Both the position numbers and the translations under genes were made by a program. From contig NZ_KQ758618.1 of the NCBI RefSeq assembly GCF_001457035.1, forward strand, positions 434,001 to 498,000: a DNA stretch of 64,000 nucleotides, given 5' to 3'. The notes beneath the pieces are model-generated. The model ran no database searches. It was not told the DNA's origin and saw nothing but the letters and a program-made list of their open reading frames with translations. This stretch comes from Fictibacillus enclensis (GTDB lineage: Bacteria; Bacillota; Bacilli; Bacillales; Fictibacillaceae). This document shows positions 18,088-32,613 of this stretch, in pieces (the stretch's first letter is position 1; every line of letters begins with the position of its first letter).

Positions 18088-18089
18088 AA

Positions 18090-18291: not shown

Positions 18292-18358
18292 GTCTCTGCG
18301 CCTCCTAACGTTTGTAGTATAACGTCTGTAGTTTGCGCAAAGGTGATCAGTTTATACG

Positions 18359-18697: not shown

Positions 18698-18761
18698 TTT
18701 AACGCCTCCGTTTCGCGATATACCTTTAGCGTATGACTTTAGAAGTTTTACTATTACATAA

Positions 18762-18800
18762 TAAAAAGCACCTCCGACTTTTTGGAGAGTGCTTATTTTT
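18762..18800. terminator. Terminator of the repressor gene
   Basis: The stem AAGCAC-CTCC / GGAGAGTGCTT with T-runs on both sides lies at the 3' end of the reverse-strand HTH gene. Confidence 0.7.
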
Positions 18801-19032
18801 TGTATATAAAAATGTCACTAATTTCTATGTCACGTGTGATACCGCGTTTTGTTTTCATTCCGTTTAGCGAGTCCAAGATTGCAAGTAGAGTTTTAAATTC
18901 AACACGTTTTGGTAATCCATTCACCATGTCTTGAATCGTAGCTGGCCTAACTTTCGCATCAACGGCCAAAGCATTTCTGGTGATATCCAGTTCTTCTAAG
19001 GTTTTGTCTAAAAGCCATTTTATCTCACTCAT
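18793..19032 (-). CDS. XRE/Cro-type repressor of the element
   Basis: A 79-residue helix-turn-helix protein (LDITRNALAVDAKVRPATIQDMVNG is the HTH), followed by a short dimerisation tail. RBS AGGAGG is seven bases from the ATG. It is transcribed divergently from the 116-residue gene across a 137-bp region holding repeated GTATTAC / GTAATA sites, the arrangement of a phage CI or Cro switch. It probably holds the element silent. Confidence 0.75.
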   Translation of the reverse strand: MSEIKWLLDKTLEELDITRNALAVDAKVRPATIQDMVNGLPKRVEFKTLLAILDSLNGMKTKRGITRDIEISDIFIYKK

Positions 19033-19097
19033 TTGGCACCTCCTGGACCAAATATAGCATGCGGATAAATTAAAGTAAAACTTTTTTAGAAATACTA

Positions 19098-19145
19098 TTG
19101 ACGTATTACTCTAAACGTAATATATTGTTACTACAACCGTAATAC
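19098..19145 (+). promoter_or_regulatory. Rightward promoter and operator of the genetic switch
   Basis: TTGACG (19098-19103) and TATATT (19121-19126) are 17 bp apart. GTATTAC (19103-19109), GTAATAT (19117-19123) and GTAATAC (19139-19145) are inverted or direct half sites that overlap both promoter boxes, the expected binding sites for the adjacent repressor. Confidence 0.65.
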
Positions 19146-19169
19146 ATTTTAAGAAAGGGATTGATTATA

Positions 19170-19520
19170 ATGGCGTGGACAGTCTTGAATGGCCCTTTAG
19201 ATGTAAAGAAAGTAAACATTAATAATGAAGACGAATCTTTCGATGGGTTCGCGGTAGGAGCTAGTACAGCGGTTTATAAAGTATACGGAACGGTGTTTCT
19301 TACTCAAGTCAGATGGTTAGATGACAACACGGTCCGCGCAGAAAGTTCCGGTTTGATACTAGAAGAGAACTATAGCAAGAAATTAACGAAAGCCACCGTT
19401 AAAATCCTCGTTAATAAGTTAAGCCATTTAAATGGTTGGATACTGTTGACTAAACTTATGGCCCATTCGGTTAACGAGCATGCGAATTTCAACTTACTAA
19501 ATTTTGAAGGAGTGAGATAA
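19170..19520 (+). CDS. First rightward gene of the element, unknown function
   Basis: A 116-residue soluble protein; I do not recognise it. ATG 19170 is favoured (AAGAAAGGGA nine bases upstream) over an upstream TTG. It is transcribed straight from the switch promoter, so it is an early gene. It is mixed alpha/beta in appearance with no membrane segment or metal motif. Two bases separate it from the next gene. Confidence 0.6.
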   Translation: MAWTVLNGPLDVKKVNINNEDESFDGFAVGASTAVYKVYGTVFLTQVRWLDDNTVRAESSGLILEENYSKKLTKATVKILVNKLSHLNGWILLTKLMAHSVNEHANFNLLNFEGVR

Positions 19521-19522
19521 CA

Positions 19523-19855
19523 ATGAAAAAAATCGTAATGTTAATCGACCTAGGGAACGAGTACGAAGCAAATGAGGGGCTTTTAATGGACGATGGTAAG
19601 CATGGAGTCTTCCACGAATCAAATAAGTTATGTATGGTACGCGTTAGTAAAACGGAGGATCCGGACGTGTACCGTCAAAACGGTGGAAGCATGATAATCG
19701 GCGATTTCGAAGGTAACGACTTCGCACCGGCCGTAGCGGGATTTGTTGCGCGAATGAGACGTAAGAGCGCGCTAGACTTTTTCACCGAAACGATTATTCC
19801 TGCGGACGAGGATATCACGTTTAATCTTCTCGGTACCAATCGTTGCTCGCGTTAA
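19523..19855 (+). CDS. Second rightward gene, unknown function
   Basis: A 110-residue protein beginning MKKIVMLIDLGNEYEANEG, with an acidic middle and a basic end. I do not recognise it. It follows the previous gene with GGAGTGAGAT as RBS, so the two form an early operon. The protein-free region starts immediately after it. Confidence 0.6.
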   Translation: MKKIVMLIDLGNEYEANEGLLMDDGKHGVFHESNKLCMVRVSKTEDPDVYRQNGGSMIIGDFEGNDFAPAVAGFVARMRRKSALDFFTETIIPADEDITFNLLGTNRCSR

Positions 19856-20900
19856 CATGGACGGCAATGATGCGGGCATGTAACGGCGATAGAAACTGTC
19901 AGGCGCTTTGGACGGCGACCATAGCGCTGGATATTCTTCCTATAATTACGTATTAAGGTTCGTACGTTCATTCGGGCGCACAACGTATGAGCCCCGGCTA
20001 AGACCGGTTATAAAGCGGAAATAGAGCGGCAACTCTTCCCGTTGGATAACCGGCCTGGGATTCCGGTTGACCTGGCATACCTCGGTAAAAGATGCTCGGA
20101 AACGGGCGTTTTTTTTTTTGGTACCCTTTTCGTAAAAACTGTATCAGTCTAAAAATCGTATATAACACAAACTGTACTAGTTTCGGTACGACGTCCACAG
20201 ACGCCCTAGAACGCCCGTAGAGCAATTTTAACGGCTTGGGGCTTTGCGTAGGGGTTAAACACCGCTTAAAAGCCGAATACGACGCCGTAGAGACGGTAAG
20301 AACACGTTTAAAAACGGCTGGCGAAACCGTATAAAAACGCCGTACGTGTTTTAAGCGTCCTAGAAGGCCCGTAGAGCGATTTTAGCGTCTGGGGGTTGCC
20401 TAGGTATTCATGCGGCTAGAAAAACGCCAGAAGCACGCTTAAAATGCTTGAGAGACACGTGCAAATCGATATGAGACGTCTAGTACGCCGAAATTCGAAA
20501 AAATAGCGGTAACCCTAACCGAGATATTCAAAACGATTTAAAACCCCGTGACGGCGCTTCTAGGGGCCTTAAAATCGATTCTAAAGGCAGACAAAGAACT
20601 TTAATTACTCAAAGGCATTTTTTAAAGTGCGTAGATGTTTGTTCCGCTTGCGCTACACAAACTTTAGATACCCCTTCGCTTATCCCTTGCCTGCCTCGCG
20701 ATTTTGTGGCCCCTCTACTCTGTGAAGGGGCGCAAAAATCACAAGTCAGTCAAGTGATTACGCGAAGCCGCCGACGATAAAATAATCAAAAAATGAGCTT
20801 AAAATCGGGTCTGGAGCTTTATTTTTAGAGTGTTTTGGTACCCTTTGTCGTAAAAAACATCACTTTTTTAAAAATATTTTTTTAAACTTCGTAAAAAAAC
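19856..20900. other. Protein-free region, left half, with dispersed repeats
   Basis: No supported gene in over 1 kb. It contains TTTTGGTACCCTTT..CGTAAAAA at 20116-20138 and again at 20833-20856; AAACTGTATCAGT (20136-20148) and AAACTGTACTAGTTT (20169-20183); CGTAGAG at 20216, 20286 and 20370; and a diverged duplicate CCTAGAACGCCCGTAGAGC / CCTAGAAGGCCCGTAGAGC about 150 bp apart. A strong hairpin, GATTTTGTGGCCCCT / AGGGGCGCAAAAATC, lies at 20699-20745. This could be a replication origin or another structured RNA. Confidence 0.55.
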
Positions 20901-20903
20901 TTC

Positions 20904-20932
20904 TTGACATTTAATCTACAGTATGTTATTTT
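20904..20932 (+). promoter_or_regulatory. Strong promoter opening the protein-free transcript
   Basis: TTGACA (20904-20909), 17-bp spacer, TATTTT (20927-20932) with an extended TGT before it. It has no protein start within 600 bp downstream. Confidence 0.6.
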
Positions 20933-20988
20933 AAAAGATTTTTAAAGTTCTTTAAGTTCTTTAAAAGATTTAAGATCTTAAAAGATTT
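20931..20988. repeat. Three TTAAAAGATTT direct repeats
   Basis: Exact 11-mers start at 20931, 20961 and 20978, with two TTCTTTAA copies and the palindrome TTAAGATCTTAA between them. AT-rich iterons of this kind are typical of origins; they would also form the 5' end of the proposed transcript. Confidence 0.65.
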
Positions 20989-21380
20989 AAAACATACCGA
21001 CTCCCTATGGTCGTCGGCGCATATTTTTAATAAAACCTTTACTACGTTAAAGTAATTTTCGCGAAAATGTATTAAGACATAAAAGAATTATGTGCCAGGA
21101 GTGAGGAACGAACGACTGGAAGGTTTGAAGTACTTAAAACATAGCACTCCTAAAGTCGTGCTGACAGAAGTTTATTATCGAGCAGATCGGCGCCGCAACT
21201 TTGTACAGGTCACGATTTTAAGACGTGTTTTAACCGCGTAGAGTCAACGCAGGAGCAACGTTTGGGTCTTCCGAGGGGTAAGACAGCCTAGCGCCTTAAA
21301 CCTCCTAATTTCGCGCGTAGAGACGCCTTGAAAACGAAGGGGTTTCTGTAAGCCGACGAAACGATGCGGTACCATACGTA

Positions 21381-21419
21381 AAACTAGTACAGTTCGTCTG
21401 AGACGATTAGTACAGTTTT
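21381..21419. repeat. Paired TAGTACAGTT operator-like sites
   Basis: AAACTAGTACAGTT (21381-21394) and GATTAGTACAGTTTT (21405-21419) are direct repeats separated by a small hairpin. They are the reverse complement of AAACTGTACTAGTTT at 20169, so two pairs of sites in opposite orientation flank about 1.2 kb of protein-free DNA. Confidence 0.55.
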
Positions 21420-21533
21420 TTAAAACGTGACATTTTTACACAATAGCAACGGTTTCCCTTCGCGTGCAGCGATCATCTTTACAAGTACGGGAGTAAATCC
21501 GTTTTATAAATTTCTGCTTGGTGGCGCAGAAAA

Positions 21534-21577
21534 GCTGTCGTCTGGACTACATGCCTGATAGTCCGGGCGGCTTTTTT
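21534..21577 (+). terminator. Terminator of the protein-free transcript
   Basis: GCTGTCGTCTGGACTA pairs with TAGTCCGGGCGGC (13 bp including G-U pairs, loop CATGCCTGA) and is followed by TTTTTT. Confidence 0.8.
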
Positions 21578-21631
21578 AATACCGTTATGGTAAGGTTTTT
21601 TACCAATTTATTTAAAGGGGGGTGAAGCAAG

Positions 21632-21868
21632 GTGGAAATTAGCTCAGTCGAATTTCGTAAGATCCGCGAAACATTCCGGATGTCTCAGTCGGTATTCGGG
21701 CAAGCACTCGGTATTTCTGCAGCGCAAGTTAATCGTATTGAACGAGACAAACGCAATCTAACCGACCGTGTTAAACGTACATTAATCGATGAATTCGTAC
21801 TCACTCCGGAAACATTAGCGGAAACACTAGCGATTCACGACAGATATAAAAGACCGAGCTGCGGCTGA
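21632..21868 (+). CDS. XRE-family HTH regulator
   Basis: A 78-residue protein with a complete Cro/CI helix-turn-helix (IRETFRMSQSVFGQALGISAAQVNRIE). The GTG start has AAAGGGGGGTGA upstream. It lies just after the non-coding transcript and begins the second rightward gene block. It could bind the TAGTACAGTT sites 210 bp upstream; that link is inference. Confidence 0.7.
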   Translation: MEISSVEFRKIRETFRMSQSVFGQALGISAAQVNRIERDKRNLTDRVKRTLIDEFVLTPETLAETLAIHDRYKRPSCG

Positions 21869-21985
21869 CACCTTGCTGCATCTCCTAAAGTCGATGCCAC
21901 ATATACATTTTCGAGCGCCTGTTTCGCGGTTAACCCGTTGAAATTGGCGTTTTTAATATGCAAAAAAACGAGGAGGAAATTGAGT

Positions 21986-22315
21986 ATGAAATTAAATGTT
22001 AAACATCAAGTCACGCGCAAGTCAGACGGTATTTACGGGTTTTGCGAACTGTCTAATCCAGACGGTGGGGTATTAATGACGTTTGAAAAGACATTTGACC
22101 GCGGATCCAATGAAATTTACGCGGCTTATAAGTCGTTCCAGGCGGTTATTCCGACAGCTCGCCGACTGCGTGCGGAGTACTTAGACATCGAAAGCAACAA
22201 CGCATGTTTTCTAAATGAAATTCGCGGCGATCGTAACGTTAATTCGCGACTATATGAACAAACAATCGACCGGCTTTACACGATTGAAATAGTATCCGTA
22301 AAACTGGTCGGCTAA
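21986..22315 (+). CDS. Unknown 109-residue element protein
   Basis: Begins MKLNVKHQVTRKSDG behind AGGAGG; the longer frame to 21938 has no RBS. Contains a conserved-looking middle FEKTFDRGSNEIYAAYKSFQ and a long helix. I do not recognise a family, and no membrane or metal-binding motif is visible. It directly precedes the HNH gene. Confidence 0.55.
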   Translation: MKLNVKHQVTRKSDGIYGFCELSNPDGGVLMTFEKTFDRGSNEIYAAYKSFQAVIPTARRLRAEYLDIESNNACFLNEIRGDRNVNSRLYEQTIDRLYTIEIVSVKLVG

Positions 22316-22345
22316 AAATAAAAAATGGAAAAGGGAGAATGGAAA

Positions 22346-22924
22346 ATGAAAAACGAAAAAAAGTGTACAAAATGCGAGCAATTAAAGTCTAAAAAGGAAT
22401 TTCATAAAGACAAAGCGAGCAAGGACGGTCGTATGAATATTTGCGCTGATTGTCGTGCTATCAGCCGAAAGGAAAACGATTTTCAGTTTAAACAACGATA
22501 TTACCACATTCGCAACAAAATGAAGACGTTAGGTTGTACGGACACCCTAACTTTTGCGGAATATAGCGAGGTAGCAAAAGCTACTACTTGTACCTATTGC
22601 GGCCGTGCACGAGAAGAAGGCGAGATTTTCCACATTGAGCACGTGATGAGTCCTTCGCTAGGTTATCCGAACAGTCGAGCTAATATTGTTCCGAGCTGCG
22701 AGGCATGTAATCGTTCCAAGTATAATCAGCCGGTTTTAACGTTTTATGAGCGGTCAGACACGTTTACTCCCGAATTATTCCAGTCGTTCTTAGAGGACTT
22801 CGCGGCAAGAAACGGTCATTCACCGGATGAGATGTTAGGGATGCTTTGCACGCATCAAGCTGGGGAAAAAATGATAAAAGAACGTAAACAGGCGCGCAAG
22901 GCCTCCAGAAAGGTCGGTGCGTAA
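22346..22924 (+). CDS. HNH endonuclease with N-terminal zinc ribbon
   Basis: A 192-residue protein. The N-terminal CTKCEQLKSKKEFHKD...CADC ribbon is common in phage-encoded HNH proteins. The HNH fold follows: TCTYCGR, then HIEHVMSPSLGYP and NIVPSCEACNRSK, giving both zinc CxxC pairs and the catalytic His. The start at 22346 follows AAGGGAGA. It may be a homing-type nuclease or a packaging/recombination helper; HNH genes often sit beside terminase genes in phages, but none is here. The stop overlaps the next ATG. Confidence 0.8.
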   Translation: MKNEKKCTKCEQLKSKKEFHKDKASKDGRMNICADCRAISRKENDFQFKQRYYHIRNKMKTLGCTDTLTFAEYSEVAKATTCTYCGRAREEGEIFHIEHVMSPSLGYPNSRANIVPSCEACNRSKYNQPVLTFYERSDTFTPELFQSFLEDFAARNGHSPDEMLGMLCTHQAGEKMIKERKQARKASRKVGA

Positions 22925-23040
22925 TGGAAAAGCTCACACTAGAAACTGTTTACGATATCCGTGAATTATTAGTCCGCATAGAAACAAAGCTCGATATTAT
23001 GAGCGAAAAGCGAGGTGATTGCGATGCCTCGCAAGACTAG
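22924..23040 (+). CDS. 38-residue coupled peptide
   Basis: Starts in the TAATG overlap with the HNH stop. The product is one amphipathic helix (ETVYDIRELLVRIETKLDIM) with a polar tail. Short helices of this type resemble the N-terminus of XhlA-like proteins, but it lacks the membrane segment. Function unknown. Confidence 0.45.
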   Translation: MEKLTLETVYDIRELLVRIETKLDIMSEKRGDCDASQD

Positions 23041-23227
23041 GCGGCAAGTAACTGCCGGTGATCCTGTGAACATCCGAAAGAAATTATCAAATAAGCGATT
23101 TGGTCGCGCGGTAAGAAGAATCGAGGGGGAGTGCGCTAGTGGCACGAAAGAGCAGCGGAAAAGTGCGTCAATCGAATATGAGTCAACGGCAACAACGGAG
23201 ACTGGAGAAGAAAAAGAAGAACAGTAA
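23024..23227 (+). CDS. 67-residue basic peptide
   Basis: Begins MPRKTRRQVTAGDPV with GAGGTGA nine bases upstream, overlapping the previous gene. The N-terminal half is highly basic, the C-terminal acidic (TTETGEEKEEQ). Unknown role; possibly nucleic-acid binding. Confidence 0.45.
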   Translation: MPRKTRRQVTAGDPVNIRKKLSNKRFGRAVRRIEGECASGTKEQRKSASIEYESTATTETGEEKEEQ

Positions 23228-23294
23228 TCCACGTAGGGATCGGTTTGATTGGACGTATATAGTAATGAAAAAACTTCGGGAGGCTAGTCAATGA
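23139..23294 (+). CDS. 51-residue very basic peptide
   Basis: GTG start with GAGGGGGAG upstream, in another frame within the previous gene. Arg/Lys-rich (QRQQRRLEKKKKNSNPRRDR) with an aromatic end FDWTYIVMKKLREA. The good RBS and the chain of overlaps suggest it is real. It may be RNA- or DNA-binding. Confidence 0.45.
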   Translation: MARKSSGKVRQSNMSQRQQRRLEKKKKNSNPRRDRFDWTYIVMKKLREASQ

Positions 23295-23341
23295 AAAAAT
23301 CCATTGGCAGACGGTCCTGGGACGAGGGGGAAAACGAATGA
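23291..23341 (+). CDS. 16-residue leader peptide
   Basis: ATGA overlap at both ends: it starts in the previous stop and its TGA overlaps the next ATG. It encodes MKKSIGRRSWDEGENE. Its likely job is translational coupling to the 139-residue gene rather than a product. Confidence 0.35.
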   Translation: MKKSIGRRSWDEGENE

Positions 23342-23757
23342 AAAAACTGATTATCACGAATATAGAACGGGTGGAAGACACGGAATTTCTGGTCGCCGTA
23401 CTTTACGGCAAGGACGGATTTATCGCGGACGAAATAATCACGCCGTTCGAAGGCTACGAAAGGGCAGTCGATAAGCTGCTGGAACTAGCAGGCGGAGATA
23501 CGACGGACGTATGGACGGCTAGTGGACGGATTTTCAAAGAGTGCCTTATGATCGGTGGCCTGGCACCACAAATAAAACATTCCAGCGACGTTAAGGACAC
23601 GAAAGAACGCTGCGAACGATACTACGACATTTTACTGGATGTACACGAATTAAAGCCACTACGCAAACCCTCCAAAATGAGGGTTATTTTAGTGCGCATT
23701 TTTAGAGGAATCACAAAACTAATCGAGGGAGATGGATTTGATTATGATGAAGTTTGA
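23338..23757 (+). CDS. Unknown 139-residue element protein
   Basis: RBS GAGGGGGA precedes MKKLIITNIERVEDTEF. Acidic N-terminal half, then a basic helical C-terminus (LRKPSKMRVILVRIFRG). I do not recognise a family; its place at the head of the structural block allows a tail-assembly or chaperone role but nothing in the sequence proves it. Its stop lies inside the next gene. Confidence 0.55.
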   Translation: MKKLIITNIERVEDTEFLVAVLYGKDGFIADEIITPFEGYERAVDKLLELAGGDTTDVWTASGRIFKECLMIGGLAPQIKHSSDVKDTKERCERYYDILLDVHELKPLRKPSKMRVILVRIFRGITKLIEGDGFDYDEV

Positions 23758-24355
23758 TAAATTGGATGCTTATTTTGAGCAAAAAGAAAGCCAACAAAGC
23801 AGCTTTGACGCGTTAGTAGAGCGTGAACAAAAGGTACAAGAAGAACTTGTCGCTTTAAAACACAAATATGAAACGCTTTTCACGGAATCCCTAAAAACCG
23901 GAGTGGATAAGTCGAAGGAACTCGACAGCCTATCGGTAAAAATCGAGGAGACGGATCGCAGTTATAAAAACCGCCAAAAAGAACGATCCGTTTACACAAC
24001 GCTAGTACCCCATAAAATTACCGCGGAATCCTTGAAGGCGGACTTTATGCAGTTTAAGAAAGAATTCGAAAAAGCGGAAGTACAACCGAAGCTCGACGCC
24101 ATCTTAGAAGTGAAAAAGCAATTTACCCGGGCGGTATTCGATTACATCGCGGTACTTGACGCGTACCAAGCGGAGAAAAACGCTGTAGAAGCCGAAATCG
24201 GCCGCGACTGGGCGTTCGATATCCTTGGATCCGTCGGCCCGCAAACTACCGCAGAAGTCGAGCGCTATTTCATTACGCCTGATGCCATAAGACAAATTGA
24301 ACGCGGACATTTACCGGCAGGCGTAACAGAAGACGACATTAGGGGGACGAAATAA
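23744..24355 (+). CDS. Coiled-coil protein, possible structural or scaffold role
   Basis: About 203 residues. Residues 1-130 are a long heptad-rich coiled coil (EREQKVQEELVALKHKYETL and similar), followed by a compact end with AEIGRDWAFDILGSVGPQ. RBS GAGGGAGA fits ATG 23744 or 23747. Its TAA overlaps the next ATG, so it is coupled to the repeat protein and tailspike genes. The scaffold idea is inference from shape only. Confidence 0.55.
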   Translation: MMKFDKLDAYFEQKESQQSSFDALVEREQKVQEELVALKHKYETLFTESLKTGVDKSKELDSLSVKIEETDRSYKNRQKERSVYTTLVPHKITAESLKADFMQFKKEFEKAEVQPKLDAILEVKKQFTRAVFDYIAVLDAYQAEKNAVEAEIGRDWAFDILGSVGPQTTAEVERYFITPDAIRQIERGHLPAGVTEDDIRGTK

Positions 24356-24804
24356 TGGAAAAGTTTATTAACGAATCAGAACTAGAAGCGCTAAAACTCC
24401 AGGCGCGCGGCAATCCTGCGAAAATGGCGGCGTACGCCACCGCAAAACGCGAGTACCAGGCGCAGGTAGACGCGCACTTTACCGAAGAACACCCGTTTAA
24501 TAACACATTTAGCGAGTCACACCTAGAGTCTTTGCGTAAGTTTGCGGAAGAAAATCCGGAAGATGATTCCGCGCAAGCTCGGTTTATCATTCAGCAAAAC
24601 CGTTTTGACGCGCAAGAAAAGGCGAAGACAGCGCAAATCGATCGGCGTTTACTGCAGAGCGAACTAAGTAGGAAATTGACGGCCGGAGAAGTAAATAAAA
24701 CCGACCTTGAACGCGCAGCACTACTCGCAAAGACAAACGGCAATCCGGAGAACAGAGCACTTTACGCGTCAATAAAAAATCAACTAAACAGAGGTAATGA
24801 ATAG
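24355..24804 (+). CDS. Three-repeat helical protein upstream of the tailspike
   Basis: A 149-residue protein built from three imperfect units of about 30 residues, each reading roughly L..L...A..NP..+A.Y...K...: at 8-38 (ELEALKLQARGNPAKMAAYA), about 55-85 (HLESLRKFAEENPEDDSAQA) and about 118-146 (DLERAALLAKTNGNPENRAL). The repeats suggest a helical rod or binding scaffold. It is coupled by overlaps to both neighbours, which makes a tailspike adaptor or chaperone attractive but unproven. Confidence 0.6.
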   Translation: MEKFINESELEALKLQARGNPAKMAAYATAKREYQAQVDAHFTEEHPFNNTFSESHLESLRKFAEENPEDDSAQARFIIQQNRFDAQEKAKTAQIDRRLLQSELSRKLTAGEVNKTDLERAALLAKTNGNPENRALYASIKNQLNRGNE

Positions 24805-27209
24805 TGGCGACAAATAAGACGGCGAATCTCGGGCTAAACAGTTGGATCGGTTCGGATAGTGTTAAACGGGCGGAAATCAACGAGAACTTCGACAAGCTCG
24901 ATGCGAAGGCGAAAGAAAATGCGGATAAAATTAACGTCCTAAACAGCCAACAAATTAACGTAAAAGACGCAGCTTACGGCGCAGTAGGTGACGGTATTAA
25001 CGTAGACTTTCCTGCGATCGATGCGGCTTTGACTGCGACTAACGGAACCATTAAAGAAGTCGTTATACCTGACGGCGTTTATCTAATCAACAACACAATC
25101 GTTGTACCACGTAACGTACGGTTGAAACTCGGGCAGAACGCGGTAATCAAGCCGGTTACCGGTGACTTTAACGTCTTCCAGTTAAAACCGCAGTCGAGTA
25201 TTTCCGGAGGCCAAGTCGACCTTTCGGGCGTCACTTTTACGAAGGCGATTTTCTACTTTGATGCGGACGATGTATTTCAATTTTACGGTCAGTCTCATTA
25301 TCTCGAAAACATCAATTGCTTGGCGGCTAATCCGGGCAATGGTGCTTTCACAGGGACCGGAATTCTTATGGAAGCCAAAGCGCCAGGATCCGTAGCCATG
25401 CCGTTTATTGATAACGTTAAGTGTAATAATCTAACGTTTATCAACTTAGAGAAAGTCATTCACTTGCGAGTGGATTCGGCTTGGGAAGCGGCATACGCGT
25501 CCGACAATACCAAGATGGCGTGGGTGAACGCGAACTATTTCCATCAGATCACAGCGCAAAACTTTAAGTACGGAATTTATCTCGAAGGCACCAGTAATGT
25601 TCCGCGCGACGTAGCCGGTAACTACTTCCACGGTCAGTTCCAAGCGGAGCCAACTACCGAAGCGGTGTTGTATTGCGAATCAGCTTATAACATTTTCGAT
25701 ATTTTCCTTTGGGACGTTCACAAAATGCCGAAAGACAAACCGGCAATTTGGTTCGGAAGCAAGGCGAAATTCAATCGGGTTATTTCCGCGACAACACTCG
25801 AAATGGCGAATAACTGGCGCAATGACAATCCGGGTGGTCAAAACCATATTGATGCGCCAGGTAATTTTACGCAATCGAAAATGTTCGCGAGTGGTCTAAA
25901 CATGCCATATGCCGCGAATATGTACGGAAATCAAGACGATGCACTTGTACGAGGCAACCTTCGAGGCTACACGATTACGCAAACTAAAGGGCCGGCAGGC
26001 GTCGGAAATTTAGCAGATCTTTTAAATCCGGACACGGAGTACGGCGTGACGTGGGACACTTCGACGACTGACTATAACAATCCGATTGTTCTCGAGATAA
26101 ATATGACGTCTGATCCGGTTTGGTATCTGCAGTATTTCGGCGCGAGTAGCCCGTATTTTCAACTCCCAGAAGGTTTATTGATGGAAGGCTACGACGGCAA
26201 TACAGCGGAGTGGATATGGCTGCATGAATTCGGTGGCAATAAGTCAAGCGCGGTAAATATTTCGCCGCCTTACTCGGTAGTTGATAAGTGTACGAAATTA
26301 CGGCTAACTTTTTACGGTTGGGTATTGTCGGCAAAGAACACGCAAAAGAAAGTTACTATTTCCCGTCTTTTCGCAACGTCCGGCAATAAGGGCGGCAATA
26401 TGTACATGGAAAGATTCGCGAGTAAGCTGGAAATGGTTGACCCTGACGGCGTACCTAGAACGCTTGTAATGGGTGCTAACGGACAGCTAGGCGCAGGTGG
26501 GGCGGCATCTAACACGGTGTCCAGTTCATTACCGCCGACACAATCCGGTAAGCCGCAGATGATCGGAAACCAAGACGACGTTCTTGCGAATCTGCCTTCG
26601 TGGGCAACATATACCGTTAACTTAGCAAAAGCCGCAGGAGAACACATTAATATGTGGGATATTCGCGCAGAAAACTTCGCTTCTTACAATACGCCTACCG
26701 TTGCGTCTCCGTTAATTATCGAAATGGACTTCACAGCAAACCCTCTTTCGTTTGTAGAATCGCTAGGAGTCGCGATGCAATGGGGCGAGTCGGCGAAAAA
26801 CGTAAAGTTCGAAGTCGTAAAAACGTCAGGCGGTGCGTATTCCGTCGCTAAAGACATCACCGGAAATACGGACGATGTAGTACAGATTGCGTATAGAGCG
26901 TCCGCGATTTACAAAATAAAAATTACACTAAGCGAAGTAAATAACACGACGACAAACCGAGTTAAGATCGGACGTATTTTTGCGACAAGTGGCAAGTCGG
27001 AAGCTACGGCATTTATACCGCGACATGGCGGTAATATGTACGGCCCATTAGGGATTGCAAAGGTTACAACGCTACCAACAGCGTCTGCAGCCTACCGCGG
27101 TCAAATGTTGCGAGTAGAGGGCGGTACTAGTGTAGCGGATAAGATTTACGTGTGTCTGAAATCCGCAACAGAAACGTATTCATGGGTTCAATTCTCAGCA
27201 GGAAGTTAA
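24804..27209 (+). CDS. Beta-helix tailspike / receptor-binding protein
   Basis: An 801-residue protein. Residues 1-50 form a short N-terminal adaptor (LGLNSWIGSDSVKRAEINENFDKLD). About 55-340 is a pectate-lyase-3-type right-handed beta-helix, opening with the classic DAAYGAVGDGINVDFPAIDAAL. Two similar C-terminal domains follow: about 373-530 and 586-737, each beginning GNQDD and ending in a FATSG motif, probably carbohydrate-binding. The last 45 residues are a common fibre tip. Such proteins bind or cut cell-surface glycans. GTG overlaps the previous stop (TAGTG). Confidence 0.82.
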   Translation: MATNKTANLGLNSWIGSDSVKRAEINENFDKLDAKAKENADKINVLNSQQINVKDAAYGAVGDGINVDFPAIDAALTATNGTIKEVVIPDGVYLINNTIVVPRNVRLKLGQNAVIKPVTGDFNVFQLKPQSSISGGQVDLSGVTFTKAIFYFDADDVFQFYGQSHYLENINCLAANPGNGAFTGTGILMEAKAPGSVAMPFIDNVKCNNLTFINLEKVIHLRVDSAWEAAYASDNTKMAWVNANYFHQITAQNFKYGIYLEGTSNVPRDVAGNYFHGQFQAEPTTEAVLYCESAYNIFDIFLWDVHKMPKDKPAIWFGSKAKFNRVISATTLEMANNWRNDNPGGQNHIDAPGNFTQSKMFASGLNMPYAANMYGNQDDALVRGNLRGYTITQTKGPAGVGNLADLLNPDTEYGVTWDTSTTDYNNPIVLEINMTSDPVWYLQYFGASSPYFQLPEGLLMEGYDGNTAEWIWLHEFGGNKSSAVNISPPYSVVDKCTKLRLTFYGWVLSAKNTQKKVTISRLFATSGNKGGNMYMERFASKLEMVDPDGVPRTLVMGANGQLGAGGAASNTVSSSLPPTQSGKPQMIGNQDDVLANLPSWATYTVNLAKAAGEHINMWDIRAENFASYNTPTVASPLIIEMDFTANPLSFVESLGVAMQWGESAKNVKFEVVKTSGGAYSVAKDITGNTDDVVQIAYRASAIYKIKITLSEVNNTTTNRVKIGRIFATSGKSEATAFIPRHGGNMYGPLGIAKVTTLPTASAAYRGQMLRVEGGTSVADKIYVCLKSATETYSWVQFSAGS

Positions 27210-27210
27210 G

Positions 27211-27236
27211 GCGGGCTTTTGCCCGTCTTTTTATAT
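27211..27236 (+). terminator. Terminator after the tailspike
   Basis: GGCGGGC-TTTT-GCCCGTC followed by TTTTTA. Confidence 0.8.
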
Positions 27237-27259
27237 TTTGAAAAGGAGGTGATACGAAA

Positions 27260-27598
27260 ATGAACTATAAAGATAAAGTCGCGCGTTATAACAAATGCCT
27301 AGACATCATGATTGAAATTAACGAATTAAGACGCGAATACAGTCCGTCCATTCCGGAAGTAATTGAATTCCGGAAACTTGGCCAGGACTTCAAGCGGTCT
27401 GAGGATCCGAATTTAAAGCTTCTGGGCGCTCGTACTATCGATTATGTACGCGAGCTACACGAGATGGCAACGTTATTGCACTATTTCTCTCCAGACAGCC
27501 GGGCAGTTCGCAAACAAGAAGCGTTACTGAATAAAGCAAAAAGCGGGATGACCGTTGCCATTTTAAGAATACAAGGGGGTGAGTTAGGTGGCGTTTGA
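27260..27598 (+). CDS. Helical protein upstream of the tape measure
   Basis: A 112-residue, all-helical, charged protein starting MNYKDKVARYNKCLD behind AAAGGAGGTGAT. It overlaps the tape-measure gene by eleven bases. In siphophages the small gene before the tape measure is often a tail assembly chaperone; position is the only evidence here. It shows no programmed frameshift pair that I can see. Confidence 0.5.
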   Translation: MNYKDKVARYNKCLDIMIEINELRREYSPSIPEVIEFRKLGQDFKRSEDPNLKLLGARTIDYVRELHEMATLLHYFSPDSRAVRKQEALLNKAKSGMTVAILRIQGGELGGV

Positions 27599-29393
27599 TC
27601 TCAAAGCAGTCATAAGAATGACAGACAAAATTTCTAAACCTTTAAAGCAAATTCAAAGAAATACCGAAACACTATCTAAATCAACGACGGCTCTATCTAG
27701 CAACATCTCCAAGACGTCCAGCGTCGGTAAACGTGAGTATTCATCACTAATGAATTCTATGGGCGTACAAACCGACAAATTTGCGAACATGAGTGCCGAA
27801 AAAATGGCGTTCTATAAAGAGAAGTTTATCGCCAACGTTGAAGCCATGCAGAGGAAAGCTGGGCAGAGTTCGAAAATGCTCGATATGCTCGGGAACCACC
27901 CTATGTTCACTGTTTCGCGTGGTCTATTGCGTGTAACGCGTGGCCTAGACGAGATTGCTAAAAAGGGGGATCCTGCGTATGTAGCGTTAAAGCAATTAGG
28001 CAAGGGCGCTAATCTTAAACAGATACATGATCGCATTAAGCTGATTAACAGCGGTCTTACCCGTATGAATCAGATACTGCTGTTCGGAGGACTGGGCTTC
28101 ATCGGTCTGAACTATGGACTCGTTAAAGCATCTAATGCGCTTGATGGACGTTTGATACCGGCCCTGGATGCGCTGAAAAAGGCGTGGGCACCGGTGATTA
28201 AACCGTTCGTGCAGGCGTGGACGACGGTTGTTGTCTACATCATGAAAGGCGTTACGGCGATGGGTAAATTTTTGGGGAAGCTTTCCGAAACGCATCAAAC
28301 GATATCTAAGCTGGCGGGCGCCTTTATCTATCTAACGTTCTTATTTACGTTACTACTTTCGCCTCTGGCAATATGCGGTAAGTTGGTGCCGGGACTCGCA
28401 ATAGCGTTCCGATCGTTATGGCTGGCCGTGAGTCCGTTTATTATCGGGCTTGGTACGGTAGTCGGTGTGGCTGCGCTTGTGGCACTTGCTGTTATCGGTA
28501 TCGGTGTGGCGCTGGTTATTGCGTATAAGAAGGTCGCGTGGTTCCGAAATGGTGTAAACGCGGCTTGGAATTGGATTAAGACGCAGACTGTCGCAGCTTA
28601 TACGGCGGTCGCTAACTTCATTAAAGCGAAATTGGACCAAATCAAACAGTTTTGGGCGTCAAATGGAGCGATGATTAAAGAAGCGATGGGTAACGTAGGT
28701 ACCGTGGTAAAAGGCATAGCGATGGGTATTTTCGCTGTGATGTCGTTTGTATGGCCGGCTATCAAGTCGTTAATATCATCGGTCTGGAGCGGGATTAAAT
28801 CGATTATCTCCGGTGCGGTTAACGTGATACTTGGCGTAGTTAAGCTATTCGCTTCTGTTTTAACCGGCAACTGGTCCGCGGCTTGGTCGGCAGTTAAACA
28901 GATTCTGAAGGGAGCTCTACAAATCGTTATTGGCGCAGTAAGAACAACGTTCGGCAGCGTAAAAGATGCAATTGCATCGGCGATGGCTTCTGCGAAAGAC
29001 AAAGTTGCGGGGTTCTTTAGTCCGTTGCTTGGTTTTATTGACCAGGTGAAGTCGGCTTGGAGCGGTATGGTTTCTTCGATTCGCAGCTTTAAGATGCCGA
29101 GTATCGGAATGCCGAAGTTTCTGGGCGGTAACGGGCTAATTCAGTCTGGTAAATCACATGCGGGCGGTCTTTCAAACGTTCCGTATAACGGTTACCAGGC
29201 TACGTTGCACAAAGGAGAACGTATATTAACTCCAGAAGAAAATAAGGCGTTTAATAACGGTAAAACGGGCGGAAATACGTTCAAGTTTGGCGATATCCAT
29301 ATTAACGGCGGGCCGACTGACAAACATACGGTTAGACGCTTGATGGATGTAATGGTTAAAGAAATCGAAATGGCCGGCTTGGCAGGCTCGTAA
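27588..29393 (+). CDS. Phage tail tape-measure-like protein
   Basis: A 601-residue protein. The N-terminus AVIRMTDKISKPLKQIQRNT is a typical tape-measure opening; about 225-315 and 370-470 are long hydrophobic segments; the C-terminal SHAGGLSNVPYNGYQATLHKGERILTPEE is highly characteristic. It is short, which would set a short tail if the usual length rule holds. RBS GGGGGTGAG; GTG start. Unusually, the gene lies downstream of the tailspike and no tail-tube, Dit or Tal gene is found. A non-phage hydrophobic-repeat protein is an unlikely alternative. Confidence 0.8.
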   Translation: MAFDLKAVIRMTDKISKPLKQIQRNTETLSKSTTALSSNISKTSSVGKREYSSLMNSMGVQTDKFANMSAEKMAFYKEKFIANVEAMQRKAGQSSKMLDMLGNHPMFTVSRGLLRVTRGLDEIAKKGDPAYVALKQLGKGANLKQIHDRIKLINSGLTRMNQILLFGGLGFIGLNYGLVKASNALDGRLIPALDALKKAWAPVIKPFVQAWTTVVVYIMKGVTAMGKFLGKLSETHQTISKLAGAFIYLTFLFTLLLSPLAICGKLVPGLAIAFRSLWLAVSPFIIGLGTVVGVAALVALAVIGIGVALVIAYKKVAWFRNGVNAAWNWIKTQTVAAYTAVANFIKAKLDQIKQFWASNGAMIKEAMGNVGTVVKGIAMGIFAVMSFVWPAIKSLISSVWSGIKSIISGAVNVILGVVKLFASVLTGNWSAAWSAVKQILKGALQIVIGAVRTTFGSVKDAIASAMASAKDKVAGFFSPLLGFIDQVKSAWSGMVSSIRSFKMPSIGMPKFLGGNGLIQSGKSHAGGLSNVPYNGYQATLHKGERILTPEENKAFNNGKTGGNTFKFGDIHINGGPTDKHTVRRLMDVMVKEIEMAGLAGS

Positions 29394-29401
29394 AAACAAA
29401 T

Positions 29402-29437
29402 AGCCGTCATTCTTTCGTAAGGGTGGCGGTTTTTTCA
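29402..29437 (+). terminator. Terminator after the tape measure
   Basis: GCCGTCATTC / GGGTGGCGG with a TTTCGTAA loop and TTTTTT. Its 3' part, TCTTTCGTAAGGGTGGCGG, recurs at 31222-31240. Confidence 0.65.
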
Positions 29438-29494
29438 TTGTTCTGTTATAAGAAGATGGACATAATATAGTTTTAAGTAGGGGTAAGAGGGAAG

Positions 29495-29529
29495 TATACT
29501 TGTAAACAATTATTGGCTATACTTGTAAA
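29495..29529. promoter_or_regulatory. Direct-repeat operator before the toxin-antitoxin pair
   Basis: TATACTTGTAAA occurs at 29495-29506 and 29518-29529, 23 bp apart start to start, about 80 bp upstream of the antitoxin-like gene. Spacing of two helical turns suits a dimeric autoregulator. Inference. Confidence 0.4.
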
Positions 29530-29607
29530 GTTTTTACTTTTTTAAAAGGTTTTTGGTGCCTTAATGGGGAATTTATGTTAATATTAAGCACAGGAAGGGG
29601 ATGTCTT

Positions 29608-29865
29608 ATGACAACACTATATAAGACCGCTACGCTCGATATTGACACTCATCAAAGGGCACGGTACGCTAAATCGTCCGAAGGAGTGAGTGTAGTTATG
29701 CAAGAAAGAAAAGATATTGAGGAAATTAAAGAAATTTTAGGTTTTAATAACACTGAACCGATTGCGCTATCTCCTGGAGATCGTGAAGATGCCGAGGAAA
29801 AAGGTGACGCGTTTGCAGAGTGGTACGAAGAGGAGTTGCGAGAATTCTATGAGCGCGGAGAATAG
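29608..29865 (+). CDS. Antitoxin-like acidic protein
   Basis: An 85-residue protein (MTTLYKTATLDIDTHQRARY start) with a very acidic C-terminal third. ATG 29608 follows GGAAGGGG; the longer frame to 29575 lacks an RBS. It overlaps the toxin-like gene by 17 bases, the usual antitoxin-first order. It has no close antitoxin-family signature that I recognise, so the call rests on context. Confidence 0.5.
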   Translation: MTTLYKTATLDIDTHQRARYAKSSEGVSVVMQERKDIEEIKEILGFNNTEPIALSPGDREDAEEKGDAFAEWYEEELREFYERGE

Positions 29866-30226
29866 GCATAATCTTAAAAAGCTTAGTAAAGTCGCCTTAG
29901 ATCGCCGTAACGCCGATCAGGGCGATTTTTTCTTTGGGAAAATTATGTTACAGGGAAATCTCTGTTCCCGTCCTGTTTTTGTGGTGGGAAAGCATGGAGA
30001 TTCCAATGATACTAAAGATGTAATTATTTGCATAGGTACAACGCAACCTCAAAAATCCGATTACGATATTCCTGTACAACTACGTGAGAAGACATACATA
30101 CGAACAAATAAAATATACACTATAGGCAGGCATCAATTAGAATTTAAAATTAAACATTCAGTTAATCCTGTAGATATTCATACCATATGTGAAAACGTAG
30201 AGAAAGCCATAAGATTTAGACAATAA
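29849..30226 (+). CDS. PemK/MazF-like toxin
   Basis: About 125 residues. The barrel pattern QGDFFFGKI...RPVFVVGKHG...DVIICIGTTQ...NKIYTIGRHQ follows the PemK/MazF fold (GD at the first strand, RP before the second, IT/GT near the third). MazF toxins cut mRNA at short sequences. ATG 29849 is chosen from the overlap with the antitoxin; the longer frame to 29762 duplicates antitoxin coding sequence. A terminator follows at 30230. Likely stabilises the element. Confidence 0.6.
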   Translation: MSAENRHNLKKLSKVALDRRNADQGDFFFGKIMLQGNLCSRPVFVVGKHGDSNDTKDVIICIGTTQPQKSDYDIPVQLREKTYIRTNKIYTIGRHQLEFKIKHSVNPVDIHTICENVEKAIRFRQ

Positions 30227-30229
30227 TAC

Positions 30230-30265
30230 AGAGGACGCGATGAATATCGGTTCTCTTTTTTTTTT
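30230..30265 (+). terminator. Terminator of the toxin-antitoxin operon
   Basis: AGAGGAC-GCGAT / ATCG-GTTCTCT stem with a GAAT loop followed by a long T-run. Confidence 0.75.
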
Positions 30266-30369
30266 GAATATAAGACATTTATTCCTGGATTCCCACTAAT
30301 TCCCTGTAGCGTATTGCTAACCGTCACCGCCCGCTATTTGCTACGTTATACAGCGGAGAGGTGTTTTTT

Positions 30370-31161
30370 ATGACGTTCGTAAGTCCGATGTTACTCGGTA
30401 AAATTGACGCACCGTTTGATGACTCGCAGTACATAGCCGAACTGAAACTCGATGGTTTCCGCTTGGTCTATTCATCGTTGGGCGCCAAACCCCGCCTGTA
30501 TACCCGCCATAACACCCATGTCACTTCGCGATATCCTGAATTAACCGCGCTAGACCTTCCGCCTGGTATCGTTTTAGACGGTGAGCTAGTCGTATGTGAC
30601 GCCGACGGCAAACCCGATTTCGAAGCTTGTATGTCGCGGTTCAGCTCGCGTAAATCGAAGCAAGCGGTTACGTATTGCGTATTTGACGTGTTATATAGCG
30701 ACAACCAGTCCGTTATGCATCTACCGTTAGTCGAGCGCAAGGCTTTATTAGACGCAATCATACCAGTAAACAGTCCAACGCTAACAAAGGTCGGCGTCAT
30801 TGACGGCTTGCACGCCCGCCAGCTTTATGACGTATGCTGCGCGCAATCCTTAGAAGGCGTAGTACTTAAGCGAAAGGACTCCGCATATCTTACCGGCAAG
30901 CGATCCGATACATGGCTAAAGATCGTCAATTACACGTTTACTGACGTATGGGTGGCCGGCTTAACCGCAAACGGCGACTGGCTGCTCGAGTTTGATGACG
31001 GAACCCCCGCCGGTATTTGCGAATTTGCTCCGCCGTTAGCGCGTAAGACCGTTTACCGCAATTTCGAAGGCCGTGGCGAACCGATTAAAGTACGCGTCAA
31101 ACACCGTAGTCTTACGAAGGGCGGGTACTTGCGCATACCCTCGTTTTTACATTTTTTATGA
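30370..31161 (+). CDS. ATP-dependent DNA ligase (minimal, phage-type)
   Basis: A 263-residue enzyme that seals nicks. All nucleotidyl-transferase motifs are present: I ELKLDGFR with nucleophile K26, III DGELVV (70-75), IIIa FDVLY (105-109), IV EGVVLKR (162-168), V WLKIVNY (182-188), then an OB domain. ATG 30370 with GGAGAG is preferred over the GTG nine bases upstream. Small ligases of this type occur in Bacillus phages and plasmids. No polymerase or primase is encoded nearby. Confidence 0.88.
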   Translation: MTFVSPMLLGKIDAPFDDSQYIAELKLDGFRLVYSSLGAKPRLYTRHNTHVTSRYPELTALDLPPGIVLDGELVVCDADGKPDFEACMSRFSSRKSKQAVTYCVFDVLYSDNQSVMHLPLVERKALLDAIIPVNSPTLTKVGVIDGLHARQLYDVCCAQSLEGVVLKRKDSAYLTGKRSDTWLKIVNYTFTDVWVAGLTANGDWLLEFDDGTPAGICEFAPPLARKTVYRNFEGRGEPIKVRVKHRSLTKGGYLRIPSFLHFL

Positions 31162-31221
31162 TCAAATACAACTATAAGCTGTTGGATTCCGGTGTAATTA
31201 ATGATAACCGAAATTCCACAC

Positions 31222-31240
31222 TCTTTCGTAAGGGTGGCGG
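31222..31240. repeat. Second copy of a 19-bp repeat
   Basis: TCTTTCGTAAGGGTGGCGG matches 29411-29429 exactly. The two copies bracket the toxin-antitoxin and ligase genes. Confidence 0.7.
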
Positions 31241-31249
31241 ATTCTTACA

Positions 31250-31288
31250 TTGAAAAAACCACCCCATAGATTGGAGTGGTTTTTTTAT
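31250..31288. terminator. Bidirectional terminator after the ligase
   Basis: AAAAAACCAC-CCCA / TGGAGTGGTTTTTTT around ATAGAT; convergent with the zinc-ribbon gene. Confidence 0.8.
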
Positions 31289-31290
31289 TA

Positions 31291-31467
31291 TTACTGATTA
31301 AACCCTTTATCAAAGTACATATCCTCTTGTCCAATTAGGATTTCTTGCTTGCAATTTGGACATTTAGCCTCATTATTTTCAATCCTTGAACTTCTAAAGG
31401 AAACTTCGTCCAATTGAATAGGAGAAGTAAAAGACTTTTTGCATTTGGGACATTTAACCATCAACAT
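31291..31467 (-). CDS. Small zinc-ribbon protein
   Basis: A 58-residue protein with CPKC near the start and CPNC about 32 residues later, a standard zinc ribbon. AAAGGAGG is 11 bases from the ATG at 31467; an ATG at 31479 is too close to the RBS. It is the only reverse-strand gene in this half of the element. Function unknown. Confidence 0.6.
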   Translation of the reverse strand: MLMVKCPKCKKSFTSPIQLDEVSFRSSRIENNEAKCPNCKQEILIGQEDMYFDKGFNQ

Positions 31468-31566
31468 TCGATCATACACCTCCTTTGGTAATTTACAATT
31501 TTCTACAACTAAAAAGGAAATTCCTTCTAATTGTCGAAAAGTTAGGTATGAAAGGAGAGATATTTC

Positions 31567-31854
31567 TTGAACAAGAAAAAGCTAAGATTTGCAATTTTAA
31601 AAGAGATTGATGCTGGAAACGCTCCTTTGAATGAACACGACTTTTCTGTGAGCGAAGAGGAATTCGATGAAGCAATTAATTTCCTTACCAGAGAAAAGTA
31701 CCTGATTGGTATTACTTGGGGAGACAACAGACCTATCGTGAGCTTGATTGGCCCAATAGTTACTGAAAAGGGTGAAACATATCTCGAGGAAAACAGTTTG
31801 TTGGCAAAAGCATATAAAGGATTAAAAGAAGCTAGAGAATGGATTAAGTTATAA
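31567..31854 (+). CDS. YjcQ-family protein
   Basis: A 95-residue winged-helix-like protein. MNKKKLRFAILKEIDAGN and the later FLTREKYLIG and VTEKGETYLEEN match YjcQ of B. subtilis, a prophage-associated family of unknown function with a DNA-binding-type fold. The TTG start has AAAGGAGAGA upstream. It is monocistronic, between the ligase/zinc-ribbon pair and yolD. Confidence 0.75.
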   Translation: MNKKKLRFAILKEIDAGNAPLNEHDFSVSEEEFDEAINFLTREKYLIGITWGDNRPIVSLIGPIVTEKGETYLEENSLLAKAYKGLKEAREWIKL

Positions 31855-31909
31855 TTTGGTAACATTTGTTAACCTTGGTCATCGAATTAGAAAAGTGAGT
31901 AACATATGG

Positions 31910-31940
31910 AGAATCGGCAGCACAAAGTCGGTTCTTTTTT
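31910..31940 (+). terminator. Terminator after the YjcQ-like gene
   Basis: AGAATCG / CGGTTCT stem around a CAGCACAAAGT-type loop, then TTTTTT. Confidence 0.6.
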
Positions 31941-31948
31941 ATTTCCTG

Positions 31949-31978
31949 TTTACAAGAACATGTGTTCGGTAATAATAT
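31949..31978 (+). promoter_or_regulatory. yolD promoter with LexA/DinR box
   Basis: TTTACA (31949-31954) and TAATAT (31973-31978) flank GAACATGTGTTC (31956-31967), a perfect match to the Bacillus LexA core GAAC-N4-GTTC. The box lies between -35 and -10, an ideal repressor position, so the YolD gene should be DNA-damage inducible. Confidence 0.75.
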
Positions 31979-31999
31979 AGAATAAAGGAGTGATTTACT

Positions 32000-32332
32000 A
32001 TGTTAAAGGATCGCGGTGGAATCAAATGGACTTCTTTAATGTTACCTGAACACGTAAAAGCCTTGCGCGAATTTGATTGGGACATAACGAAAATTGAGCG
32101 GCCGGTATTAGATGAACAACAACTCGAGGAAATAAATGAAACGATATGCGCAGCCATGGAGTTCAATAAAGCGGTTAAGATTGCGTATTATAAATCCGGT
32201 CGAATCGAAACTACAAACGGCCATATTCATTATCTTGACGTGCATAACAAGCAAGTACGCCTCGTCAACAAAGGCGGCACGATAAGCCGTATTAAATTCG
32301 AGGATATAACGGAATTAACCATTGATGAATAG
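32000..32332 (+). CDS. yolD: YolD-like protein
   Basis: A 110-residue YolD-family protein: MLKDRGGIKWTSLMLPEHV, then the DEQQLEEINETI helix and a beta-rich end with GHIHYLDVHNKQVRL. YolD proteins usually sit beside a Y-family polymerase (UvrX/YqjW) and belong to the SOS response. Here it stands alone as the last gene before attR, but it keeps a LexA box. RBS AAAGGAG. Confidence 0.85.
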   Translation: MLKDRGGIKWTSLMLPEHVKALREFDWDITKIERPVLDEQQLEEINETICAAMEFNKAVKIAYYKSGRIETTNGHIHYLDVHNKQVRLVNKGGTISRIKFEDITELTIDE

Positions 32333-32470
32333 GCGCAGTTTGGGTATTATAAGGTTATCGCAATACACCGTCTTGAACGGTTGTAGTTATCGACCCTTTG
32401 CGCAAATAACAATCGTCTGAAACGTACATAAACGTTGATATTATCGTAAATAATCTCACGCACAACATAC
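32333..32470. promoter_or_regulatory. Right end of the element, possible attP arm
   Basis: No gene. GATATTAT and AATAATCTCAC (32443-32465) resemble the left-end sequence at 14890-14925, and several TTATCG motifs occur. Candidate integrase arm sites. Confidence 0.35.
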
Positions 32471-32570
32471 CGGAGGATTCACCATCGACAACCCGAACGC
32501 CATCGCGTCCTGCGGATGCGGATCTTCCTTCCGTACAGCCGTCAATGCCGGAACTCCTGAAGAGTGCTAA
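32471..32570 (+). repeat. attR: right copy of the 100-bp direct repeat
   Basis: Identical to the last 100 bases of yutM. It is the original chromosomal 3' end, now without a start, still followed by its own terminator. Confidence 0.95.
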
Positions 32571-32584
32571 TAAGCTATACACGG

Positions 32585-32613
32585 TAAAACCCCTGACGAG
32601 TCAGGGGTTTTTT
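32585..32613 (+). terminator. Native yutM terminator, displaced by the element
   Basis: AAAACCCCTGAC / GTCAGGGGTTTTTT right behind the attR gene fragment. Confidence 0.85.

Follow-up and report, generated by a model that had tools for sequence, protein, structure and literature searches.

What would a bacterial genome do with a phage tailspike and a tape measure when no head or packaging gene accompanies them? The question is raised by a 64,000-nucleotide stretch of Fictibacillus enclensis DNA (contig NZ_KQ758618.1, positions 434,001 to 498,000; hereafter the window), in which these genes form a short structural block. Here, we describe the integrated element with sharp ends to which they belong, and compare it with relatives in other Bacilli. 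We consider it probable that this is a phage satellite in its integrated state, one of a family whose members encode their own tape measure and, in some cases, further tail parts. Element proteins are named by p and their start position, compared genomes by G and loci by L with a number.

Element ends and insertion site

The element measures 17,706 bp and is bounded by a perfect 100-nt direct repeat. The left copy (attL, 14765–14864) forms the 3′ end of a host HesB/IscA-type gene (14508–14864) and is 100% identical to the right copy (attR, 32471–32570). An earlier note on this DNA had drawn the unit at 22346–29393, an interval that begins within an HNH endonuclease gene (22325–22924); the true unit is 14765–32570. 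In the same-genus genome G003 the two flanks are contiguous, which represents the empty site. Just inside one end lies a tyrosine integrase gene (15084–16103, forward strand; Pfam Phage_integrase, E = 1.3e-34), and related integrases are found at the same HesB site in G049 (Calidifontibacillus erzurumensis; 73% identical), in G557 (68%; one site end seen) and in G676 (69% over 235 residues, in a split open reading frame, ORF). Site-specific integration with flanking attachment (att) repeats, a feature by which phage-inducible chromosomal islands (PICIs) are recognised, is thus present in the window element. Another genome of the genus, G004 (L073, L080), has at this HesB site a remnant of approximately 1.5 kb between duplicated site ends, comprising a short stretch that resembles an integrase start and a 288-aa ORF.

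Recurrence of the structural block

The block consists of p23338 (23338–23757), p23732 (23732–24355), p24355 (24355–24804), a tailspike (24804–27209), p27260 (27260–27598) and the tape measure protein (TMP; 27588–29393), all on the forward strand; every ORF that the earlier note had named in it is present and open. The series p23338–p23732–p24355–p27260–TMP, often with a small terminase subunit (TerS), recurs whole or in part in other Bacilli genomes. A tape-measure search matched 45 of 149 genomes (as in the counts below, the window's own is included), and 14 genome neighbourhoods divided evenly into compact elements without a head set (G005, G008, G049, G108, G112, G131 and G139) and ordinary prophages (G014, G018, G029, G068, G075, G098 and G137). 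The coiled-coil-like p23732 serves as the family marker, with profile matches in nine of the 397 genomes searched in the order and in 17 of 398 in the class; among the same 397, the profiles of p23338 and p24355 matched seven and six. Counts based on p23732 are lower bounds, given that G005, G008, G131 and G108 have no recognisable copy (G108 was matched by p24355); a weak match in G500 (L124) was not confirmed.

The class search yielded 16 new loci, with p23732 in 15, a p24355-type C-terminus in 12, TerS in 11, p23338 in 10 and a tape measure in nine. Wherever five genes are found together (five loci, found by p23732 alone), their order is p23338–p23732–p24355–TMP–TerS. TerS also occurs in G049, G377 and G112, and two of the 11 new instances are weak. 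It lies upstream of the tape measure in G557 and G112, and in the G005 element a YolD gene, not TerS, follows the tape measure. The first three block genes, without a recognised tape measure, are carried by the 16,047-bp Halobacillus halophilus plasmid NC_017669.1.

These elements are of even size. Seven relatives whose ends were searched have exact repeats of 42–156 nt, spaced 15,081–17,311 bp apart, and an open repeat search delimited four elements with a tape measure (G112, 16,403 bp; G755, 17,175 bp; G612, 16,096 bp; G495, 15,628 bp) and two without a recognised one (G676, 17,735 bp; G046, 13,867 bp). The 12 tape-measure-bearing elements with att repeats, the window's included and G676, G046, G386 and G404 left out, span 15.1–17.7 kb. 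The att repeats differ in sequence among elements. None of eight control stretches held a 24-nt repeat at a spacing of 13–19.5 kb (8–14.7 kb for the shortest). For 11 of the 16 new loci, and for G158 and G368, no repeat was found in pieces of at most 19.9 kb, which may miss an end, and these loci are not counted as lacking att sites. Packaging limited by the capsid would be expected to produce such uniformity. Smaller elements of 8.2–8.8 kb in G404 (L059/L072) and G386 (L061/L063) carry p23732 without a tape measure, between att repeats that are tRNA-like by eye, and are possibly reduced satellites. We did not find the family described in the open-licence literature, judged mostly by listings (PMC4936722, PMC3398947, PMC10219371, PMC11364771 and PMC11389934 among it).

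Absence of head and tube genes

The earlier note had reported no capsid, portal, terminase, tail tube, baseplate or lysis gene, and none appeared among 25 scanned element ORFs, 19 of them compared with Pfam and PHROGs and six with PHROGs only. A BLAST marker set (TerL, portal, sheath, tube, major capsid protein (MCP) and baseplate J) found nothing in 14701–32600. Each control was tested without its own markers, and at least one marker was recovered in 10 of 12 phage or prophage loci (the misses being L027 and L031) and at least three in all five contractile ones. No marker was found in eight of nine earlier element loci, the ninth (G112) having an MCP only, or in any of the 16 new loci. Neither TerL nor portal was therefore detected by this search in any element locus, which speaks against the refuting case named in the earlier note, that homologous loci are full prophages with heads and terminases. 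On the same marker results we rejected a derivation of the block from full prophages. The signs of a defective prophage, namely irregular size and remnants of head, tube, sheath or lysis genes, were not encountered.

One relative does encode a capsid. At L029:5447–7448, the 16.4-kb G112 element has an SU10-type MCP (Pfam, E = 1e-85) and, preceding it, a scaffold-like gene; TerS follows the MCP, and the element also has a tape measure but no portal or TerL marker. It can be regarded as a half-way capsid-forming satellite.

Neither Pfam nor PHROGs places the block proteins p23338, p23732, p24355 and p27260 convincingly in a family. The earlier note had allowed that such proteins might be ordinary head genes; neither database identified any, and PDB profile searches with the p27260, p23732 and p23338 families gave weak matches to unrelated proteins, by which hidden head genes were ruled out. 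The protein p23732, which the earlier note had called a coiled-coil protein, is charged, coiled-coil-like and without a family, and it is a candidate redirector of assembly. The protein p24355, 64% identical to that of the Fictibacillus gelatini (G008) element, had been called a three-repeat protein: a profile recognises only the last repeat, and the other two score no better than chance, although over 30 nt of DNA the first and the last are 70% alike. This last repeat occurs alone in G200, G377 and G108, and its profile matches the C-terminus of the G112 scaffold (E = 5.6e-4; 4.5e-5 in a smaller set, in which a minor capsid protein of KLEB27-1 also scored, E = 1.1e-3). The G112 scaffold in turn matches that of Sporosarcina phage Lietuvens (E = 2.4e-6). 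These similarities are a lead, not proof, that p24355 may bind capsid protein. A single-sequence search with p23732 found nothing in 35 relatives, the G112 scaffold had no match in phage records, and a scan of genome contigs with p24355 returned two loci, both already in the family set.

Tape measure, tailspike and helper class

The tape measure identified in the earlier note is a 601-aa mosaic (phrog_58, E = 3.5e-25). Residues 1–60 and 506–601 match satellite tape measures best (G005: 52% over 54 and 66% over 82 residues), and residues 61–505 match a siphovirus prophage one (37% over 401). Because the ends are satellite-type and the middle siphovirus-type, we read the protein as one whose docking ends appear to have been kept and whose ruler middle was swapped. 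The small helical protein p27260 overlaps its start by 11 nt; an AlphaFold2 model has four helices (mean pLDDT 89.8), and by this model and the position of its gene the protein is a candidate tail assembly chaperone. A PDB profile search with p27260 matched no chaperone. The earlier note had also proposed that the element supplies tail length. That is doubtful: satellite TMPs fall within the phage range (644 aa in G377 versus 648 aa in phage MRSA107), and ruler replacement may for this reason matter more than a change in length.

The tailspike matches phrog_12123 over residues 39–760 (E = 9.1e-189). Pfam recognises a pectate-lyase-like domain in it (E = 2e-6), and a PDB profile search gave no match. 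Residues 1–46 are 57% identical to the product of a contractile-prophage gene (G032) that occupies the place of a tail fibre, and residues 1–70 are 37% identical to an MRSA107 protein, with no other match returned, so that the anchor leans towards contractile phages. Through this protein the element may determine receptor specificity. In other satellite blocks, ORFs of 440 and 414 aa with a similar start (L115:7334–8656 and L111:3393–4637) are possibly further satellite-borne tail appendages; the C-terminus of the L115 ORF matches phrog_32308 and also has a weak tail-fibre match.

Sequence comparison with five contractile references (marked by sheath genes) and six siphovirus ones, two of them incomplete, gave a contractile best match for 16 of 18 satellite TMPs, 10 of which had no siphovirus match at E ≤ 1e-4. 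The G557 TMP is 57% identical to that of MRSA107 over its whole length. Tail-cluster proteins are present in other satellites. DUF2577 occurs in G131, G425, G529 and G563, and in Lietuvens its gene lies between tail protein and baseplate genes; G563 also has a LysM/Dit-like protein. A G005 satellite protein, whose PHROG is labelled sulfurtransferase, is 41% identical to one encoded after the G032 tail-fibre gene. On balance a contractile-tailed helper would be the likelier one.

Other genes of the element

The remaining genes are those of a small mobile element. On the reverse strand are a 258-aa protein with no Pfam family and weak PHROG matches (17066–17842), a small hydrophobic protein (18359–18697) whose C-terminus resembles phrog_5422 (E = 1.2e-14 over residues 69–111) and whose family member in G108 adjoins FtsK/Replic_Relax, and a Cro/C1-type regulator (18793–19032; HTH_26, E = 2.4e-7). 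On the forward strand, two small genes (19161–19520 and 19523–19855) encode products 46% and 38% identical to G005 and G008 element proteins. The next 1.8 kb (19856–21631) contains no recognisable gene, and has AT-rich repeats at about 20850–21000 as well as two copies, 85% alike, of a 40-nt repeat (20202 and 20356); it is possibly an origin or a decayed replication gene. Compared with relatives' element proteins it gave no match at E ≤ 0.01, and where a decayed replication gene was sought, the best of the matches listed had E = 0.001 (a 50-aa ORF), the G005 primase scoring E = 3.9.

Five further forward-strand genes or gene pairs frame the block. Upstream are a second, Xre-type regulator (21632–21868; HTH_3, E = 1.5e-6), a small protein without a family in Pfam and PHROGs scans (21938–22315), and the HNH endonuclease (22325–22924; HNH, E = 2.1e-8; phrog_1035, E = 4.2e-20; 70% identical to that of the G005 element). 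Between the last of these and the block, 23015–23227 had as its nearest structural match in PHROGs a 'neck protein' at chance level (E = 0.041). Downstream lie an overlapping gene pair (29575–30226), the second MazF-like (phrog_1936, E = 3.5e-4) and the two possibly toxin–antitoxin cargo, and an ATP-dependent DNA ligase, also cargo (30361–31161; Pfam, E = 7.4e-31). Next to the right end are genes for a YjcQ protein (31567–31854; Pfam, E = 6.8e-18) and, adjoining attR, a YolD protein (32000–32332; Pfam, E = 1.5e-29; 65% identical to YolD of the G005 element), both on the forward strand. Scans for tRNA genes and Rfam families were empty. Purifying selection is suggested for p24355, the HNH endonuclease and the integrase, because their non-synonymous divergence (dN) is 0.21–0.26 and synonymous divergence (dS) is saturated and not computable; for p23015, which is short, the constraint is weaker (dN 0.10, dS 0.17). 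Elsewhere in the family, the G377 satellite has a gene for an actin-like (ALP_N) protein (L055:1939–2787) upstream of an FtsK-type gene.

Interpretation and alternatives

The earlier note had suggested an element that supplies tail parts to a helper, the reverse of known satellites. The first half is strengthened by the recurrent family and by the precedent of the PICI-like elements (PLEs). The second needs amending, because relatives carry TerS, one has capsid and scaffold-like genes, and the C-terminus of p24355 is weakly scaffold-like; the same programme probably includes redirecting either packaging or the capsid. Under such a programme, the integrase would insert the element at the 3′ end of the HesB/IscA gene, and growth of a helper phage would lead to its excision, copying and expression of the morphogenetic block. 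The proteins p23732 and p24355 would act, scaffold-like, on the helper procapsid. The helper's ruler would give way to p27260 and the tape measure, with helper tube, sheath and baseplate assembling around the satellite TMP, and the tailspike would sit on the helper baseplate by its phage-type N-terminal anchor, from where it would bind or cleave a glycan of the host surface. We extend this tentatively: a satellite's own tailspike and ruler on a helper baseplate could yield particles that attach to hosts the helper does not recognise, so that the parasite sets the host range of transfer, the ends of the mosaic ruler docking to the helper tail and its middle being swapped freely.

Several observations weigh against the satellite reading. 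No TerS, FtsK/Replic_Relax or replication gene was recognised in the window element by Pfam, PHROGs or relatives' proteins. The direct comparison of p24355 with the Lietuvens scaffold gave E = 0.36, a weak link, and p24355 and p23732 had no match in 50,697 phage records or in IMG/VR pattern scans, which leaves no record of packaged copies; IMG/VR scans with the window TMP, a G377 p27260-type protein and G377 TerS likewise gave no confirmed relative. G612 has a tail-completion or neck-type gene (L117:8570–9019; phrog_5, E = 1.7e-10) directly upstream of the tape measure, and the G563 satellite has a LysM/Dit-like protein, its PHROG labelled endolysin, so phage structural types are not wholly absent from the family. 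The contractile link draws on few references; G139 (by one bit for siphovirus) and the window TMP are exceptions to it, the margin over siphovirus TMPs is small for G377, G755 and G495, and siphovirus KLEB27-1 also scored (E = 8.9e-6) when 13 sequences were searched with the profile of the TMP N-end. Searches of the window's own genome identified no helper: TerL phrog_2 gave one weak partial match. The SU10 capsid search there was uninformative, its control matching nowhere, and a tape-measure search of that genome found no second copy of the window type.

Of the other explanations, the one that survives best accepts the family as described and takes the window copy for an immobile relic that keeps its structural genes. 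What the window copy lacks in recognisable form, namely TerS, FtsK/Replic_Relax and a replication gene, can each be found in some relatives, an AEP primase for instance in the G005 element. Against this stand the perfect att repeat, the open integrase and long ORFs, and the G005 element, in which YolD likewise takes the place of TerS after the tape measure; moreover, satellites can borrow replication and packaging from a helper. We hold the relic to be somewhat unlikely. An unlikely alternative, compatible with chimeric tails, is that the tape measure serves DNA entry, being ejected to help form a membrane path and thereby adapting injection to the recipient. The HK97 tape measure reportedly acts in genome injection, and with TMP lengths in the phage range a change in length need not be the point, but injection alone would explain neither the tailspike nor p27260. 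It is improbable that the tape measure, p27260 and tailspike are poison parts, a defence that jams or mis-anchors tail assembly of a superinfecting phage. Defences of mobile elements are known to act on tail assembly, as with Tai (PMC11364771) and Rta (PMC12987554); full-length TMPs with kept ends and a differing middle, and the tail-cluster genes and TerS of relatives, nonetheless fit building better, and defence genes would not need a full tailspike. A prophage that lost its head, tube and lysis genes and kept tailspike and tape measure by chance, which the earlier note had called the simpler rival, is very improbable: the window copy does lack genes for replication and FtsK, 1.8 kb of it is free of genes, and the G004 remnant implies that elements at this site decay, but the block recurs in elements of near-constant size with intact att repeats of differing sequence, the window's repeat is perfect over 100 nt, and three of its genes appear to be under purifying selection.

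Comparison with known systems

The satellite reading places the element among systems with which it shares some parts and not others. PICIs are approximately 10–20 kb in size, far below their helper phages, and SaPIs (Staphylococcus aureus pathogenicity islands) redirect capsid assembly, which the scaffold-like p24355 recalls. The window element (17,706 bp, with 11 relatives of 15.1–17.3 kb) resembles PICIs and SaPIs as an integrated element of about 15 kb with Xre-type regulators and, in relatives, TerS. It differs in having a tape measure and tailspike, where a PICI would have no structural tail genes of its own, and in lacking a recognised TerS and, in 19856–21631, a recognised primase or replication initiator.

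Capsid-forming PICIs (cfPICIs) encode their own capsid set with portal and TerL. The closest approach to them is the G112 relative, with its SU10-type capsid and scaffold-like gene; unlike them, the window element has no capsid, portal or TerL, and G112 no TerL or portal marker. Contractile phages of Bacilli (MRSA107, Lietuvens and the G032 prophage) resemble the family in TMP, tail-fibre anchor, DUF2577, the G112 capsid and scaffold, and the G377 FtsK, but encode the sheath, portal and other head–tail genes that the satellites lack.

The nearest parallel is with the PLEs of Vibrio cholerae (PLE1, PLE4 and PLE11), which likewise encode a tape measure. According to the available sections of PMC12987554 (Nature 2026), PLE11 encodes TMP, a tail assembly chaperone (TAC) and the baseplate hub protein BhuB; TMP and BhuB enter chimeric tails, both having been detected in virions alongside tail parts of ICP1, and deletion of tmp in PLE11, PLE1 and PLE4 reduced transfer by 96–99.9%. 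The paper states that a tape measure had not been reported from other satellites, and the legend to its Extended Data Fig. 10 gives putative tmp genes for some cfPICIs and for further Vibrio elements. In the window, p27260 holds the chaperone position and is helical in its model. Judged by anatomy, the family should work like PLE. It differs, in a comparison made by description, in its Bacilli hosts, the p23338/p23732/p24355 block, TerS in relatives and the tailspike. The last is the most novel part, no PLE receptor-binding protein being mentioned in the sections of PMC12987554 available. If the satellite reading is correct, Gram-positive bacteria too would have satellite-made tails, in elements that can be recognised by their gene block, and satellites would use tail takeover more broadly. 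Where the tailspike is borne by the satellite, host range would belong to the satellite as well. Small-capsid packaging can be tested directly, given the even size of 15–18 kb and a scaffold-like gene.

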